NCBI GenBank assembly: GCA_004376055.2
Contig: CP049016.1
Span: 2,418,001-2,482,000, forward strand
DNA: 64,000 nucleotides
Direction of reading: 5' to 3'
Source: Nitrospirales bacterium LBB_01
Lineage (GTDB): Bacteria; Nitrospirota; Thermodesulfovibrionia; Thermodesulfovibrionales; Magnetobacteriaceae
Below are positions 3,721 to 14,357 of this stretch, piece by piece. The notes beneath the pieces were generated by a model. It did no database searches. It was not told the origin of the DNA and saw only the letters and a program-made list of their open reading frames with translations. A program made the translations under genes and the position numbers. The number at the start of each line of letters is the position of its first letter. Positions within the stretch are counted from its first letter, which is position 1.

Positions 3721-4623
3721 CTAAAAAGCCTCTATGCCCATATTGATACCGCTTATATTGCCTATTCTGGCTTTCAACGTGTTTTCCACCTGCGCTCCTA
3801 TCAGATAACCCTTATCAAGTGTATGACCCTGATCTACTTTGATAATCATATCCACCCATATACCGTGCCCAACCTTTCTGGCATTTAAGCGTGCCACACG
3901 TCTAACGCCCGGCACAAGCATAGCTGTCATTTCCATCTCTTTAAGCACCTGTTTGGGCAGTGAGGAATCCATTATCCCTTTAAACGAATCATTCAGCATC
4001 CCTGCACTTAGCCTTATTAAATCCAACGTCTCTATCACCGCAACAAGCGGGTCAACAAAATAAAACCCATACCTTGAAAGCAGCACCGCTCCGGCTACAA
4101 ACGCTGACGACACAGCGTCTGAGTGGTTATGCTTTGCGTTGGCTACAATTGCAGGACTTTTTAACTTTTCCCCAACACAATATAGGTATTGCGAAAGTTT
4201 ATAATTTGCTATCATTGAGATAATCGCAGCAAACAGAGCTATCAGCTTCGGTCTGTAAACCTGCCCAAGATACGCATGGTAAATATCCTTTACCGAATGA
4301 ATCAACAGAAACAGCGTGCCTATTATTATAAGTATGCTTATCAGAAAAATTGAAACATACTCAATCTTGCCATGCCCATAAGGATGTCCCTCATCTGCCG
4401 GTTTACCCGATACCTGAACGCCGATAAAGACGACAAGCGAGGTCAAAAAGTCTTTAAAGGAATACAACGAATCCGCAAGGACTGCCTTACTTCCGCTTAT
4501 TAAGCCAACAATTGCCTTAAACACGGCAAGAAACAAATTGCCGCCTACGGCAGTCCACCCAGCCGTCTTAGAGCAGTTGTAACACTCCTGATAGACTATA
4601 TTATTTTGTGGCAGTTCGTGCAT
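3721..4623 (-). CDS. mamM: Magnetosome cation diffusion facilitator MamM
   Basis: This 300-residue CDF protein has an N-terminal CxxC (C14, C17), six membrane helices and a C-terminal regulatory domain ending in NISGINMGIEAF. The helix-2 site reads LADSLYSFKDFL, with Tyr (Y54) where MamB has His and Asp at 51 and 58; this Tyr-Asp signature marks MamM, which reads LADAMYSLKDML in Magnetospirillum. MamM imports iron into the vesicle and stabilises MamB. It overlaps the 3' end of mamP by 28 nt and is followed 6 nt later by the EcsC-type gene, indicating one transcript. Confidence 0.9.
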   Translation of the reverse strand: MHELPQNNIVYQECYNCSKTAGWTAVGGNLFLAVFKAIVGLISGSKAVLADSLYSFKDFLTSLVVFIGVQVSGKPADEGHPYGHGKIEYVSIFLISILIIIGTLFLLIHSVKDIYHAYLGQVYRPKLIALFAAIISMIANYKLSQYLYCVGEKLKSPAIVANAKHNHSDAVSSAFVAGAVLLSRYGFYFVDPLVAVIETLDLIRLSAGMLNDSFKGIMDSSLPKQVLKEMEMTAMLVPGVRRVARLNARKVGHGIWVDMIIKVDQGHTLDKGYLIGAQVENTLKARIGNISGINMGIEAF

Positions 4624-7470: not shown

Positions 7471-8541
7471 CTATTTCTTTTTACTGCCTATCTCGTTCCA
7501 ATACTCCTCTGGCATATCCTTACAGAGCATCAGTGCGCCGTTAGCGCCCGCAAAAAGAGTTTCCTCAATGCGTGTAACTTTGCCGTAACCGAGATGTTTT
7601 TTCATATAATCCTCGATTTCCTTTTTAAGCCCCGCTATTTGACTGCCGCCCCCGGCCAAATAGACGTTTTCCTTCAAAACTGCCTGAAACTCCGGATCAA
7701 ACGTTGCAATAAGTTTTCTTATTCCTTCTACTATCTCCGGCACAACCTCTCTGCAAGCCATCTTAAGCTCATTTGTGACGTCGTGCCTTTCCGGTTTCCC
7801 TTTCACCGGAATCTCTATAAAAATACTGTCCCCGTGTTCGGATATATTAGCATTTTCCTCTTTAAATCTCTTTACCATATTTACGGTGAAATTAGCGTCG
7901 CCGTGTTTTTTCATAATTAGGTCGTAAAACACCGAATCAACGAAATCTCCAGCCTTAGTCGTAGTAATCTGGTCCTCATCGGAGGGCATAGTGCCGTGCA
8001 TCCTGCATAAATCAACAGTCCCCGCTCCAATGTCAACAATCAGAACGTTGTTAAGGAGATTAAGCCCGTAAGCGACTGCAAACGGCTCAGAAACTATCAT
8101 CACATCGTCAAGAATACCTGAGGCAATTTCAAGCAGCACCTTTTTGTTTTTTCTGCTTGCCATAGCAGGCGCTCCCAGCACCCCTCTAACGATGAATTCA
8201 CCCTCAACATCGGTGCTGCCCTCTTTGGCTATATCTATCAGATGCCGCAACAGCTCCTTTGCCGCATCTATGGACTTCTGATACCCTGCGTCCTTTTCCG
8301 TCAGCTCATCTGTGTATTTAAGCATTCCCTTGTCAAATGGCCTAAAAAGCGTCACTGCCATCTTATTTCTTAAAGCATCGTCTCCAAAGGCAATATCTTT
8401 GCCAAGCAGCTTTTTAGATATTGCATCTTTGGGGAATCCCACATAACTTGACACAAAAGTTCTTATACCGTTATCGCAGGCGATAACGCTTCTGGATGTT
8501 CCCAAATCTATGCCGACGTTTAACACATGCTTGTCAGACAT
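7471..8541 (-). CDS. mamK: Magnetosome actin-like filament protein MamK
   Basis: This 356-residue actin-fold ATPase has the phosphate-1 motif VGIDLGTS (9-16), the connect-1 Glu in VSEPFAVAYGL (E152), phosphate-2 IVDIGAGTVDL (D170) and adenosine motif YLAGGGSQIAGL (about 294-305). Segments such as VGFPKDAISKKLLGK and the C-terminal PEEYWNEIGS match MamK (YWRQLG in Magnetospirillum). MamK polymerises into the filament that aligns magnetosomes into a chain. It follows the coiled-coil gene by 48 nt and is probably driven by the promoter at 9169-9197. Confidence 0.93.
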   Translation of the reverse strand: MSDKHVLNVGIDLGTSRSVIACDNGIRTFVSSYVGFPKDAISKKLLGKDIAFGDDALRNKMAVTLFRPFDKGMLKYTDELTEKDAGYQKSIDAAKELLRHLIDIAKEGSTDVEGEFIVRGVLGAPAMASRKNKKVLLEIASGILDDVMIVSEPFAVAYGLNLLNNVLIVDIGAGTVDLCRMHGTMPSDEDQITTTKAGDFVDSVFYDLIMKKHGDANFTVNMVKRFKEENANISEHGDSIFIEIPVKGKPERHDVTNELKMACREVVPEIVEGIRKLIATFDPEFQAVLKENVYLAGGGSQIAGLKKEIEDYMKKHLGYGKVTRIEETLFAGANGALMLCKDMPEEYWNEIGSKKK

Positions 8542-8589: not shown

Positions 8590-9105
8590 TCATTTCATCT
8601 CAGACCGCAGCTCTACATTTTCCATAACGATACTTTTCAAAAATGATTTCTTTGAATCCGCAATTCTCTTTTTAGGCTCAGCCGACTTGCCGCTCTTAGC
8701 GAGAGTTATGCCGTGTTTTTCAATGTAGGCGAGGCGTTTTTCAATTGCCTCAAGACGCTGTTCAATGCTTGAGAGGCGCTCAGAGCGTCTCTTTATCAGT
8801 TTCTCTATGTAGAGCAGGATTTCCTTGATTTCTTTAGATGCCTTACCGGTTAAGTCCTTAACAGGCCGTATGATGCTACTAACAGGGCCGGCTATGCCTT
8901 TAATTGGCACAACGATTTTAGCTATCGGCTCTCCTACCGCTTTACCGCCTCTTACAACATAGCTATACACAACCAGCACTGAGTACTCCATTGAAGCGTA
9001 AGTATAAAGCCAGGATTCGTTTAGTATCTCAACGCTGCCGGAGACTGATGAGTCTAACAGTTTTTTTAGATCTTTATAATCCACTTTCATATTAGGCACT
9101 TTCAT
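8590..9105 (-). CDS. Coiled-coil protein upstream of mamK
   Basis: This 171-residue protein has a central stretch of Val, Ile, Gly and Pro (about 60-90) that may touch membrane, then a long coiled-coil segment with heptads (LSSIEQRLEAIEKRLAYIEK at about 115-135) and a basic Ser/Lys tail. No enzymatic motif is seen. The first ATG at 9105 has a near-perfect AAGGAGG ribosome binding site. It is the first gene after a good sigma70-type promoter (9169-9197) and precedes mamK by 48 nt, so it may help position or regulate the MamK filament. Coiled-coil Mad proteins are known in similar clusters, but I cannot name which one. Confidence 0.78.
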   Translation of the reverse strand: MKVPNMKVDYKDLKKLLDSSVSGSVEILNESWLYTYASMEYSVLVVYSYVVRGGKAVGEPIAKIVVPIKGIAGPVSSIIRPVKDLTGKASKEIKEILLYIEKLIKRRSERLSSIEQRLEAIEKRLAYIEKHGITLAKSGKSAEPKKRIADSKKSFLKSIVMENVELRSEMK

Positions 9106-9289: not shown

Positions 9290-10180
9290 TTATTTTGCGT
9301 AGCTCAGCACATTGGCTATAATGTCGGCAAATGAGGTAAGGACCTCCTCATCGGCAGTATCTCTCTTATGTCCCTCGCATACATAGACACAGATTACGCC
9401 AAATAGTTTGTTAGCCGCAACTATGGGCACACAGTAATGGCCATGGGGTGGTGCGTCTTTATTCAATTCGTGACGCTTATCAATATTGTCGGCAAACACT
9501 ATCTCCTTAGAGCCAGCGGCTATTCCGCAAAGGCACTTACCAAGTGTTACAGTGGTGCACTCCGGAGTTCCAATTGATGCGGCTATAACAAGCTCATCAG
9601 AGTCATCCAGAGCTAAAAAGATGACGCCCATTGTTTGAAGGAAAAGCCTTGGGATTGACGTTACAAGCCTAAGGGACTGCTCTAATTTTGCCTCAAAAGT
9701 TATCGGCTTTAAAAACACCTTTAATATCGTGTTTATTACCTTAACTCTTGCCTCCATTCTGTGTCTGTAAAGAGCCATGCTGACAGCCACAAGCAGGTCT
9801 CTGACAGCAAATGGTTTAACGATATAGCCATAAGGCTCTGTAATTCTTGCCCGCCCCAGAGTTTCAATATCTGTGTGAGCAGTTAGATATACGATTGGAA
9901 TGTTATATAGCTCCTCAATTTTAGCAGCACCCTCAATCCCATCCATTTTGCCTTCAAGTGTTATATCCATAAGCATAAGGTCAGGCGATAACTCTCCTGC
10001 TTTTTGTATTGCCTCTTCAGCGGTTGTGACAATATCAAGGACGTTATATCCGATTTTTTTTAACTTCATCTCTATATCGCGGGCAACAATTATCTCATCC
10101 TCAACAATGATGACCCTTATTGCAGTCTTGTTGTTGGATATTTCTGTTTCGTGTTCCAAAGGTTTACTACCGCTCCTCAC
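9290..10180 (-). CDS. Response regulator with C-terminal GAF domain in the magnetosome cluster
   Basis: Residues about 20-140 form a receiver domain with acidic pair (VEDE), phosphoacceptor Asp in LMLMDITLEG and Lys in YIVKPF. A linker helix follows, then a GAF domain (about 165-295) with CLCG and HGHYCVPI motifs. There is no DNA-binding output domain, so the protein probably signals by interaction or sensing. The start overlaps the 3' end of the actin-like gene by 14 nt, so the two are coupled. A closely similar GAF motif set occurs in the hybrid kinase near 23.2 kb, which raises the possibility of a shared ligand; that link is inference. Confidence 0.82.
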   Translation of the reverse strand: MRSGSKPLEHETEISNNKTAIRVIIVEDEIIVARDIEMKLKKIGYNVLDIVTTAEEAIQKAGELSPDLMLMDITLEGKMDGIEGAAKIEELYNIPIVYLTAHTDIETLGRARITEPYGYIVKPFAVRDLLVAVSMALYRHRMEARVKVINTILKVFLKPITFEAKLEQSLRLVTSIPRLFLQTMGVIFLALDDSDELVIAASIGTPECTTVTLGKCLCGIAAGSKEIVFADNIDKRHELNKDAPPHGHYCVPIVAANKLFGVICVYVCEGHKRDTADEEVLTSFADIIANVLSYAK

Positions 10181-11387
10181 TCATTGCCATGACAAGGGCG
10201 CCCTTAGAGGTGGCATTTAACGGATCCTTTGCCATTCTTATTTCTGAGATTTCAACAGGCATCCGCATGGCACTCAGCGCCTTTTCCAGTCTCTCCCTTA
10301 ACCCCTTAGGCATACTCGTTCCGCCGCTAAGCACTATCGGTATTGGGGCGGTAATTTTAGGCACCTTATCGGAGGACGATATCACCTGCTGAAGGCTCTG
10401 TACCAACGAATTAATTAAATCCATATAGTATATGTGAAGGGACATTTCTACCTTGTTTACTGGAAGGACTGACAGATCAAGCGCCTCCTCTTTGATTACT
10501 TTTATCTTGGTTGCCGATTCTTTTACATCTCTGCTTACCATCTCATCTATGTAATCGCCACCCTTTTGAATGCTGTATGTAATTACAGGCACGGATAAGT
10601 ATGACAAACAAACATTACACATGCCCCCGCCCATGCTTATGCCAATTCCAGTAAAGTTACTGTCGGCAAGCTCTGACATCACCACTGCCAAACCCTCGTT
10701 TATCGGCACCGGAGTAAACCCAAGACTTTCAAAAAACATCTTTAATATTGACTGATGCCCTATTGACATCACCGTAGCCCCCACTGGGTCGCCTGGTACG
10801 CTGTAACAGAGAATCTCGCCAAACTTCTTTGGTTTTTGCACAACGGTTTTAATTATTGACTGCATGAGGATTATGCCCTCGTTTTCTTTGGAGCTAAGAA
10901 ATCCTCTTTCCATCGGCCTTCGTGTATTGTTGTTAAACATGTTTGCGAAATTTTCCGCCGAGTAGCCGATTATATAGTATTGCTTATCAAATTCAATGAA
11001 AGTAACCTCATTTTTATTGAGAATTGATTTTGTAAATCTTGACTGAGGGATTGTAAAGAAAGCATTAACCTGTTTAACGATGTGGATACTGTTTCCCTTA
11101 TTTTGTGCCAAAACGATGTTGCTTGTGCCGATGTCCATTCCAATAGGGCCAAATGGGCTTTCAGGAGCGGCGCCCGGCTCTTTGTCTGAGGTAACCGTGG
11201 TTTTTTCGGTTGTCCTGTAAGCCGACTCAATCCGCACATCCGACACCGGTCTGTCGTATGCCGGCGGCGGTGGCGGTGCACTGAATGAGGGCGCAGGGGG
11301 GTGAGCCTGCGCATCCTGTGATTCCATATCACCCAGCCTTGATTTTAATCGTTCTATCTCATATTGCAGATCGTTTTCCTCTGACAT
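10167..11387 (-). CDS. mad28: Second actin-like protein of the magnetosome cluster (Mad28-like)
   Basis: The 406-residue protein starts with a short charged helix and a Pro-rich linker (about 25-55), then an actin-like domain with phosphate-1 GMDIGTSNIVLAQ, connect Glu in PINEGLAV and adenosine motif IVLSGGTSMPKGL. The phosphate-2 motif reads ISMGGGMCNV, with Ser where MamK has the conserved Asp, so nucleotide hydrolysis may be altered. Mad28 is the actin-like protein of Desulfobacterota and Nitrospirota clusters and the best match. The ATG at 11387 is preferred over the upstream GTG (11414) because a GGGAGG site lies 7 nt ahead and a promoter maps just upstream. First gene of the cluster. 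Confidence 0.8.
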   Translation of the reverse strand: MSEENDLQYEIERLKSRLGDMESQDAQAHPPAPSFSAPPPPPAYDRPVSDVRIESAYRTTEKTTVTSDKEPGAAPESPFGPIGMDIGTSNIVLAQNKGNSIHIVKQVNAFFTIPQSRFTKSILNKNEVTFIEFDKQYYIIGYSAENFANMFNNNTRRPMERGFLSSKENEGIILMQSIIKTVVQKPKKFGEILCYSVPGDPVGATVMSIGHQSILKMFFESLGFTPVPINEGLAVVMSELADSNFTGIGISMGGGMCNVCLSYLSVPVITYSIQKGGDYIDEMVSRDVKESATKIKVIKEEALDLSVLPVNKVEMSLHIYYMDLINSLVQSLQQVISSSDKVPKITAPIPIVLSGGTSMPKGLRERLEKALSAMRMPVEISEIRMAKDPLNATSKGALVMAMSEER

Positions 11388-12768: not shown

Positions 12769-13035
12769 TTAGTATATCTCGTCGTGGGAACCAATGTTAA
12801 GTAGATGAATGGAATCTTCTGTTAATGTAAACACTATGCGGATATCGTGGGTAACTGAGCAGGCGTATTTGCCGCTAAAGTTACAGGAGAGGGCATGGGT
12901 GTGTAAAGATGGGGTAAAAGGATTCTCACGTAACATCTTTAATACTTTTGATAGCTTAGCGTCCATAACTGGTGAGTTTTTGGTAACTTTAGAGGCCTGC
13001 CGCATAAATTGTTTCTCATATTGTAACTTTGGCAA
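12769..13035 (-). CDS. RelE/YafQ-type toxin 1 of a triplicated cassette
   Basis: The 88-residue protein is a type II toxin of the RelE superfamily, YafQ-like by its C-terminal block KYACSVTHDIRIVFTLTEDS and GSHDEIY. Such toxins cut mRNA on the ribosome. The gene abuts its antitoxin gene (13036). The C-terminal half is nearly identical to toxins 2 and 3, while the first 36 residues are unlike them. It is the only one of the three where toxin and antitoxin do not overlap. Confidence 0.82.
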   Translation of the reverse strand: MPKLQYEKQFMRQASKVTKNSPVMDAKLSKVLKMLRENPFTPSLHTHALSCNFSGKYACSVTHDIRIVFTLTEDSIHLLNIGSHDEIY

Positions 13036-13272
13036 CTAATCTTTCCAGTTTCTTATCGCATCCATCGCTTCTTCAACGGTTTCAAAGGTATAATATTCGC
13101 CTCTTTGCTCAGCTGCCAGCGTTTCCTCAACAAAAGCCTGATGCTTACGCTCTTTTTCAACAAGGAACGCTATGAAATCGGATGCCTCTTTAATACGCTC
13201 CACAGAAAGCGCAGCTAGCATCTCATGAATTCGCTCAACATCAGGGTTTACATCTATTGCAGTTTCTATCAT
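13036..13272 (-). CDS. Antitoxin 1 of a triplicated cassette
   Basis: The 78-residue antitoxin has a conserved N-terminal part (about residues 1-52, IDVNPDVERIHEMLAALS, DFIAFLVEKERKHQAF) shared with the other two cassettes and a unique acidic C-terminus (FETVEEAMDAIRNWKD). By analogy with other pairs, the variable C-terminus should wrap the toxin. The N-terminus resembles small DUF2281-like antitoxins, not a classic ribbon-helix-helix. Promoter-like AT-rich DNA lies upstream. Confidence 0.8.
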   Translation of the reverse strand: MIETAIDVNPDVERIHEMLAALSVERIKEASDFIAFLVEKERKHQAFVEETLAAEQRGEYYTFETVEEAMDAIRNWKD

Positions 13273-13323
13273 GGCTATAGTTTAAAATATTTTCACTCTT
13301 TTTCTCAACTATTGCTCCCCCTT

Positions 13324-13605
13324 TTAATAAATCTCGTCGTGAGAGCCAATGTTAAGCAGATGAATGGTATCTTCTGTCAACGTAAACACTATGCGGATAT
13401 CGTGGGTAACGGAGCAGGCGTATCTACCGCTAAAGTTACCTGATAAAGCATGGGTTTTAAGTGAAGGGTCAAAAGGGTTTTCCTCAAGTTTTAAAAAGAT
13501 TTTCTTGATGGGCTCTTTAAGGTTTGGATTTTTTCCGGTAATTTTTAAAACTTTTCTTGAAAACGCAGGCGGGTATTGCAGCTCACGCTTCGTCAAATAT
13601 TGCAT
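13324..13605 (-). CDS. RelE/YafQ-type toxin 2 of a triplicated cassette
   Basis: The 93-residue toxin shares the C-terminal block from ENPFDPSLKTHALS to GSHDEIY with toxins 1 and 3. Its first 39 residues (RELQYPPAFSRKVLKITG) are unrelated. The gene overlaps antitoxin 2 by 23 nt, giving translational coupling. See toxin 1 for the activity. Confidence 0.8.
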   Translation of the reverse strand: MQYLTKRELQYPPAFSRKVLKITGKNPNLKEPIKKIFLKLEENPFDPSLKTHALSGNFSGRYACSVTHDIRIVFTLTEDTIHLLNIGSHDEIY

Positions 13606-13813
13606 TAAAAGCCTCTTCGGCGGTTTTAAATCTTATTGCAGGTTCCTTTTCGTTTGCCAGCGTTTCCTCAACAAAAGCCTGATGCTTACGCTCTTTCTCA
13701 GCAAGGAATGCTATAAAATCAGACGCCTCTTTGATACGCTCCACAGAAAGCGCAGCGAGCATCTCTGAAATTCGCTCAACATCAGGGTTTACATCTATAA
13801 CAGTCTCTATCAT
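13583..13813 (-). CDS. Antitoxin 2 of a triplicated cassette
   Basis: The 76-residue antitoxin has the same first 52 residues (one or two substitutions) as antitoxins 1 and 3 and a different C-terminus (EPAIRFKTAEEAFNAIFDEA). The upstream DNA between cassettes (13814-13864) is a near-copy of 13273-13323, so each cassette carries its own leader. Confidence 0.8.
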   Translation of the reverse strand: MIETVIDVNPDVERISEMLAALSVERIKEASDFIAFLAEKERKHQAFVEETLANEKEPAIRFKTAEEAFNAIFDEA

Positions 13814-13864
13814 GGCTATAGTTTAAAATATTTTCACTCTTTTTCTCAACTATTGCTCCCCCTT

Positions 13865-14134
13865 TTAATAAATCTCGTCGTGGGAGCCAATGTTAAGTAG
13901 ATGAATGGTATCTTCTGTCAACGTAAACACTATCCGGATATCGTGGGTAACAGAGCAGGCGTATCTACCGCTAAAGTTACTTGATAAAGCATGGGTTTTA
14001 AGCGAAGGATCGAAAGGGTCTAATGCTATTTTCCTTGCAAAGTTTATATATGAAGTCTTAAGATTTGGGTTTTTCTTTAAAAGTTTTTTAGCTCTTTTAA
14101 GGAAAGACTTTTTAGCCTCAATCGTCATCTGCAT
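13865..14134 (-). CDS. RelE/YafQ-type toxin 3 of a triplicated cassette
   Basis: An 89-residue toxin is expected from the ATG at 14134 (or 14128), which overlaps antitoxin 3 by about 17 nt as in cassette 2. The open frame extends further upstream to 14248 but that part is only the antitoxin gene read in another frame. The N-terminus (TIEAKKSFLKRAKKLLKK) is specific to this cassette; the C-terminus is shared. Confidence 0.78.
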   Translation of the reverse strand: MQMTIEAKKSFLKRAKKLLKKNPNLKTSYINFARKIALDPFDPSLKTHALSSNFSGRYACSVTHDIRIVFTLTEDTIHLLNIGSHDEIY

Positions 14135-14357
14135 TAAAAATAGCTTCCATAAGTTCCTCTGCCGAATTACAAATAACGTAATCAGGCTCGGCTTCAGCTG
14201 CCAGCGTTTCCTCAACAAAAGCCTGATGTTTACGCTCTTTTTCAGCAAGAAACGCTATGAAATCGGACGCCTCTTTGATACGCTCCACAGAAAGCGCAGC
14301 GAGCATCTCATGAATTCGCTCAACATCAGGGTTTACATCTATTGCAGTGTCTATCAT
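14118..14357 (-). CDS. Antitoxin 3 of a triplicated cassette
   Basis: The 79-residue antitoxin shares its first 52 residues with antitoxins 1 and 2 and ends in a unique, very acidic tail (NSAEELMEAIFNADDD). Upstream DNA keeps the shared AT-rich leader for only about 30 nt and then diverges (14388 onwards), marking the outer boundary of the tandem array. Confidence 0.8.
   Translation of the reverse strand: MIDTAIDVNPDVERIHEMLAALSVERIKEASDFIAFLAEKERKHQAFVEETLAAEAEPDYVICNSAEELMEAIFNADDD

Follow-up and report, generated by a model that had tools for sequence, protein, structure and literature searches.

What kind of actin is encoded beside mamK in the magnetosome cluster of Nitrospirales bacterium LBB_01, and what is the meaning of the serine that it carries where MamK has an aspartate in the phosphate-2 loop? 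The stretch of DNA analysed (64,000 nucleotides of contig CP049016.1, hereafter the window) was recognised as a magnetosome cluster from MamM (3721-4623) and MamK (7471-8541, minus strand; 469 bits on NF040964, cut-off 400), which both scored above their NCBIfam cut-offs, and the models for MamA, MamB, MamP and MamQ also matched in the window, each below its own cut-off. The second actin gene, mad28 (10167-11387, minus strand), lies 1.6 kb from mamK, and between the two is a conserved small gene (8590-9105, minus strand) with homologues sharing a locus with MamK in L038, L055, L061, L066, L111 and L127. Reverse-complement translation gave a mad28 reading frame of 406 amino acids from an ATG at 11387 to a stop at 10167, with a ribosome-binding-site-like GGGAGG just 5' of the ATG. 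The first-pass annotation had called this second actin Mad28-like, and both its position next to MamK in a magnetosome cluster and the published Mad28 motif bear this out. Elsewhere in the window, an array of three consecutive, similar pairs of small genes (12769-14357, minus strand) was judged toxin-antitoxin-like from the ORF list by eye.

The protein begins with a helix in the AlphaFold model (residues 2-24; 11316-11384) followed by the proline-rich N-terminal extension that had been noticed at first reading, a linker with 13 prolines in the 58 residues from 25 to 82 (11142-11315) and with pLDDT below 50 over residues 25-47. The helix may or may not be an amphipathic membrane anchor, its hydrophobic moment being equalled by 11.5% of 2000 shuffles and thus not clearly above chance; an amphipathic helix in Mad28 has been described by modelling (Shimoshige 2025; PMC12713370). 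Behind the linker are the actin motifs, all on the minus strand, namely phosphate-1 (GMDIGTSN, 11118-11141) with Asp85 kept, connect-1 with Asn230-Glu231 where MamK has EP (10695-10700), phosphate-2 (GISMGGGMCN, residues 249-258, 10614-10643) with the Ser251 codon at 10635-10637, and an intact adenosine motif (SGGTSMPKG, 10302-10328).

The phosphate-2 loop is altered as first read, GISMGGGMCN without an Asp in Mad28 as against IVDIGAGTVDL in MamK. When 39 volactins were aligned profile to profile with 10 MamK-type actins, Ser251 fell on the phosphate-2 Asp of MamK, which we take to be D161. The change extends beyond this residue, since the triplet Ser251, Met256 and Asn258 of Mad28 stands against Asp, Thr and Asp in MamK, and Met256 and Asn258 were as constant across volactins as Ser251, with Thr and Asp at these positions in MamK-type actins. 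Glu231 was invariant in the cellular and viral volactins aligned, being present in 129/129 of the cellular set, and Asp85 was invariant wherever aligned, with one gap in each of two sets. The Asp-to-Ser change together with a connect-1 xExx motif has already been published for Mad28 (Awal 2023; PMC10653835), and both parts were found in the window protein as S251 and N230-E231-G232.

Mad28 was assigned to the Pfam family Volactin (PF25216) with 289.1 bits (E 6.9e-86) against a cut-off of 35, the match spanning positions 3-321 of the 321 in the profile. Membership in the MamK or MreB families was ruled out on curated cut-offs, as the protein scored 48.5 bits on NF040964 (cut-off 400) and 19.4 bits on TIGR00904 (cut-off 365.75). 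What Mad28 shares with MreB is the actin fold, the phosphate-2 position of MreB being an Asp, and with MamK it shares the fold and a neighbouring gene; the best VIA match was MamK 5ljv (Z 27.2, 293 residues aligned, rmsd 2.8), and a published comparison of three Mad28 proteins gave 15-17% identity to M. gryphiswaldense MamK. A tblastn search of plasmids returned haloarchaeal relatives in Haloarcula and Natrinema with 39-40% identity (E 6e-71 to 3e-71), which themselves score 447-466 bits on PF25216, and the same four records were recovered with the Haloarcula protein as query. Volactin is known from Haloferax (HVO_2015, PF25216), and the two haloarchaeal members examined share the S/M/N triplet with Mad28 and are without its N-terminal helix and Pro-rich linker. 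A link between Mad28 and volactin was not found in the literature searched, which included a text search of three Mad28 papers and the volactin paper. The wider family picture is the new part here; the Ser change itself was already in print.

A serine occupied the phosphate-2 position in 129/129 cellular volactins of at least 200 amino acids, two of them haloarchaeal. This set was reduced from 133 matches by the removal of four shorter than 200 amino acids, and some genes from metagenome-assembled genomes are counted in it through two collections; the number of distinct volactins is 103 when rows of at least 300 amino acids are taken once per distinct sequence of the last 330 residues, as was done for the tree. 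The Pfam model or tblastn supplied 47 of the 129 and a pattern scan of genome contigs, of which the best 80 of 414 confirmed relatives were kept, supplied 82. One scan pattern includes the Ser and biases that set, although Ser was also present in the 10 of these 82 that were found without the Ser-containing pattern. IMG/VR viral contigs gave at least 562 relatives, and the best 80 all carried Ser (80/80), including 43 that lack the pattern containing Ser. When 297 genomes of the Desulfurivibrio phylum were searched in addition with the Pfam model, 30 loci resulted and 11 of their proteins passed E 1e-10; nine were high-scoring volactins, each with Ser (9/9; three of their genomes are already among the 129), and two (L180 and L181) were MamK-like. 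The latter pair reached 37.9 and 36.9 bits on PF25216 yet have Asp at phosphate-2 and are 49% identical to the window MamK, and they were counted as MamK-like. The Ser rule is therefore valid for high-scoring volactins only and the 35-bit cut-off of PF25216 is loose. The signature S-x-G-[GAS]-G-M-x-N was defined in this work for Volactin and is present in Mad28.

The serine could in principle stem from faulty sequencing or assembly or from a local mutation, for which no observation spoke, and the first-pass annotation had named an Asp in nearly all orthologues as the outcome that would point that way. The alignment gave the opposite result, and the LBB_01 genome encodes three volactins, namely the one in the cluster, a long one with 96% identity to it over the last 330 residues and one of 358 aa, all three with the same phosphate-2 motif. 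An error or local mutation was ruled out by these three separate copies and by the 129/129 count, and we give it a negligible probability. The serine is not a local defect, because it is fixed in a wider actin family that includes salt-loving archaea and large phages. Judged from conservation, it is probably an old family signature within a re-set catalytic site and not a product of decay, and as a fixed family feature it is a more probable mark of an independent filament system than of a MamK cap.

The explanation that we consider likely is that Mad28 is a volactin with its own nucleotide-dependent, N-terminally tethered filament, which places the magnetosome chain beside MamK and works with a re-set ATP site. 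Mad28 would most likely polymerise into this filament by itself, the N-terminal helix and linker would act as its tether, and the filament may position the chain along the concave membrane next to the MamK filament. In the catalytic site Asp85 and Glu231 would be kept in function with Ser251, Met256 and Asn258 replacing the Asp, Thr and Asp of MamK, and ATP turnover is expected to be slow rather than absent.

Published work on other Mad28 proteins is consistent with this reading. Mad28 of BW-1 formed filaments in vitro with ATP-gamma-S and none without it in the assay described, and it formed filaments on its own in cells (PMC10653835). For RS-1, localisation of Mad28 was reported to depend on curvature and an N-terminal truncation led to the loss of filaments, and Mad28 was placed at magnetosomes or the concave membrane in RS-1 and FSS-1 (Shimoshige 2025; PMC12713370); in a delta-mad28 strain the magnetosome chains were reported to leave positive curvature (Russell 2025; PMC12748827). 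By analogy, the window Mad28 would be expected to resemble these proteins in its filaments, its curvature phenotype and the effect of truncation. The Mad28 proteins of RS-1, BW-1, HCHbin1 and Mbav (Awal 2023; Russell 2025; Shimoshige 2025) are likewise second actins accompanying MamK with a phosphate-2 Ser, and the window protein is 66% identical to one from Magnetominusculus xianensis HCH-1 (L088) and 50% identical to one from Desulfamplus magnetovallimortis (L158), although either of these may not be the copy that was tested.

The same experiments bear on a different possibility, that Mad28 binds ATP and is dead for hydrolysis, its filaments serving as static tracks and a permanent curvature scaffold beside a dynamic MamK. 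ATP-gamma-S was called non-hydrolysable and the in vitro filaments stable by the authors (Awal; PMC10653835), the D161A change was described as stabilising MamK filaments, and mutating such residues was reported to abolish the ATPase activity and dynamics of other actins (PMC5059902); by analogy, the stabilised MamK mutant and the stable Mad28 filaments may both count against a dynamic Mad28. Volactin filaments of Haloferax, however, grow and shrink in vivo in a manner resembling dynamically unstable polymers (PMC10869688), and the same Ser is present in the two haloarchaeal volactins examined, from which, as the Haloarcula and Natrinema relatives, the Ser of the filmed HVO_2015 is deduced. 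The invariance of Asp85 and Glu231 would also be odd in a dead enzyme. A hydrolysis-dead Mad28 is on balance unlikely, and Mad28 would probably hydrolyse ATP, the serine presumably acting within the re-set site. The 'non-hydrolysing cap' is accordingly not the best reading, given that ATP-gamma-S supports polymerisation of Mad28 and that the filaments of Haloferax volactin show dynamic instability in vivo.

Whether Mad28 works with MamK, as the first-pass annotation had supposed in proposing a cap, a regulator or a non-hydrolysing filament subunit, has a divided answer in the literature. BW-1 Mad28 and M. gryphiswaldense MamK interacted weakly in a single two-hybrid permutation, gave a faint band on pull-down and formed filaments that superimposed (PMC10653835), but the RS-1 protein was reported to interact, self-interaction apart, with Mad25 as sole partner in two-hybrid tests and the mad28 deletion phenotype to differ from that of mamK (Russell 2025; PMC12748827). 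Some co-operation with MamK is thus weakly indicated, and the part of the proposal that makes Mad28 a cap or regulator is disfavoured, since Mad28 forms its own filaments and its deletion does not resemble that of mamK; the evidence best supports a nucleotide-dependent volactin filament distinct from that of MamK. Genome content also bears on whether Mad28 caps or regulates MamK filaments or joins them as a co-subunit. In favour of such a role are the spacing of 1.6 kb between mad28 and mamK and a MamK over the cut-off in 12/12 window-family genomes searched. Against it, volactins occur in viral contigs, and among the 33 volactin genomes reached via 33 of the 80 chosen loci (the best of 414), 11 had no MamK-family match over the cut-off (genome completeness not given) as against 22/33 that had one. 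The 22 say little about magnetosomes, because four of the six MamK-family sites inspected (L163, L164, L166 and L168) were actin pairs without the other mam markers used, although a volactin is encoded in the same genomes; at the remaining two (L165 and L167) further genes resembling those of the window cluster are present. Taken together, a role of Mad28 as a component or regulator of MamK filaments is improbable. One window-family genome (G003, 93% complete) had a MamK over the cut-off and only a short volactin was found in it.

Volactins proved to be general in the family of the window, with at least one over the cut-off in 19/19 genomes examined, LBB_01 included. The LBB_01 genome differs from the published Mad28 set in having two Mad28-type copies, one within the cluster and the other at a separate site of the contig, besides the short volactin; several mad28 copies per genome are mentioned for other strains (PMC10653835), and mad28-30 have been described as scattered outside the clusters in Nitrospirota (PMC9840458). 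The cluster and chromosomal mad28 genes of LBB_01 (window 10167-11387 and L004:9908-11131) share 86% DNA identity, which is confined to the coding region, and the corresponding copies of a congener (L038 and L039) share a tract of 94-95% identity. At the informative sites between the two genomes, 74 grouped the copies within each genome, 22 grouped them by locus and 13 did neither. The pattern points to gene conversion or else to repeated duplication. The two within-genome mad28 pairs had tree support of 92 and 85, not starred, and in G010 and G014, which are genomes of the Magnetobacterium type, it is the two cluster copies that form a pair, with starred support of 96. A tandem of two divergent volactin genes was seen at L057:5649-8348 (G007).

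A receiver-like gene was located directly downstream of 44 of the 103 distinct volactins (examples are L004:11140-11562 and L005:10595-12814). In 16 of the 44 the receiver-like part sits in a long protein, mostly of about 740 amino acids, and the long version scanned from LBB_01 carries the Pfam Transglycosylase and Transpeptidase domains of PBP1A. The other 28 are followed by a MinD/ParA-like gene in 26 cases. A conserved L..DL..FL tail closes the stand-alone copies, and the protein of L136 is predicted to adopt a receiver fold to which a C-terminal helix is added. A genome-wide search of 30 relatives with the LBB_01 partner as query gave 22 matches in 16 genomes, all of the window family (16/18, as against 0/12 other genomes of the order), and all 22 adjoin a volactin by coordinates, 21 downstream and one upstream. 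The partner is not restricted to chromosomal copies: ten distinct volactins share their locus with MamK, and six of these have the partner while four, the window volactin included, lack it. The Desulfobulbales-type volactins (35 tree rows) are without it. A profile search of 148 Desulfurivibrio-phylum genomes gave weak matches (about 20-41 bits) in 48, a number of them in long frames, which were read as ordinary response regulators uninformative on pairing.

This tight partner is a different gene from the Receiver-GAF gene of the window (9290-10180, minus strand, a listed ORF with a GTG start; Response_reg E 2.6e-19, GAF_2 E 4.9e-10), which shares 14 bp with the end of mad28. The Receiver-GAF gene was ruled out as a conserved partner of cluster mad28 by its absence downstream of the cluster volactin copy in G001, and it is probably not a fixed part of the Mad28 system. 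Similar genes occur near some other volactins (L103, L079 and L153), receiver domains being common.

Volactins may on this wider evidence be an old actin family of their own, found in haloarchaea, bacteria and large phages, whose catalytic site functions in the absence of a phosphate-2 Asp. Their bacterial members would serve as a general positioning filament for the envelope and organelles (magnetosomes, gas vesicles and PBP1A cell-wall synthesis), often steered by a dedicated adjoining receiver-like partner, and Mad28 would be one such chromosomal filament that the magnetosome cluster took over, with cluster and chromosomal copies in this genus still exchanging sequence. We regard this broader picture as evenly balanced between being right and wrong. 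The fixed Ser across archaea, bacteria and viral contigs raises the general question of whether ATP can be cycled by an actin without the phosphate-2 Asp, and the volactin of Haloferax, a genetically tractable host, could answer it for Mad28 also; there the protein was reported to act in disk-shape development with filament tips bound to the membrane (PMC10869688). The receiver-like partner, fused to PBP1A in some cases, is a concrete candidate regulator.

At least one Nitrospirota volactin has a gas-vesicle cluster setting, as at L077 (3640-10208) the gene lies inside a cluster with Pfam Gas_vesicle and GvpL_GvpF matches. At L076 (3580-6981), also from Nitrospirota, a volactin stands beside homologues of the L077 GvpF/L proteins, and a gas-vesicle setting was judged by eye at L080. 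The 178-aa volactin neighbour at L035 gave no Pfam match, the gas-vesicle setting there depending on one shared neighbour. For the viral volactins, the one tested against PHROGs had no match, and at one viral locus the neighbour is of tail-completion type. Volactins 37 and 32% identical to the Haloarcula protein are encoded in two uncultured phage records, of 485 and 595 kb respectively. The viral volactin contigs (L199-L278) reach 436 kb, and a protein of about 370-400 amino acids was seen by eye to follow the volactin in several of these loci.
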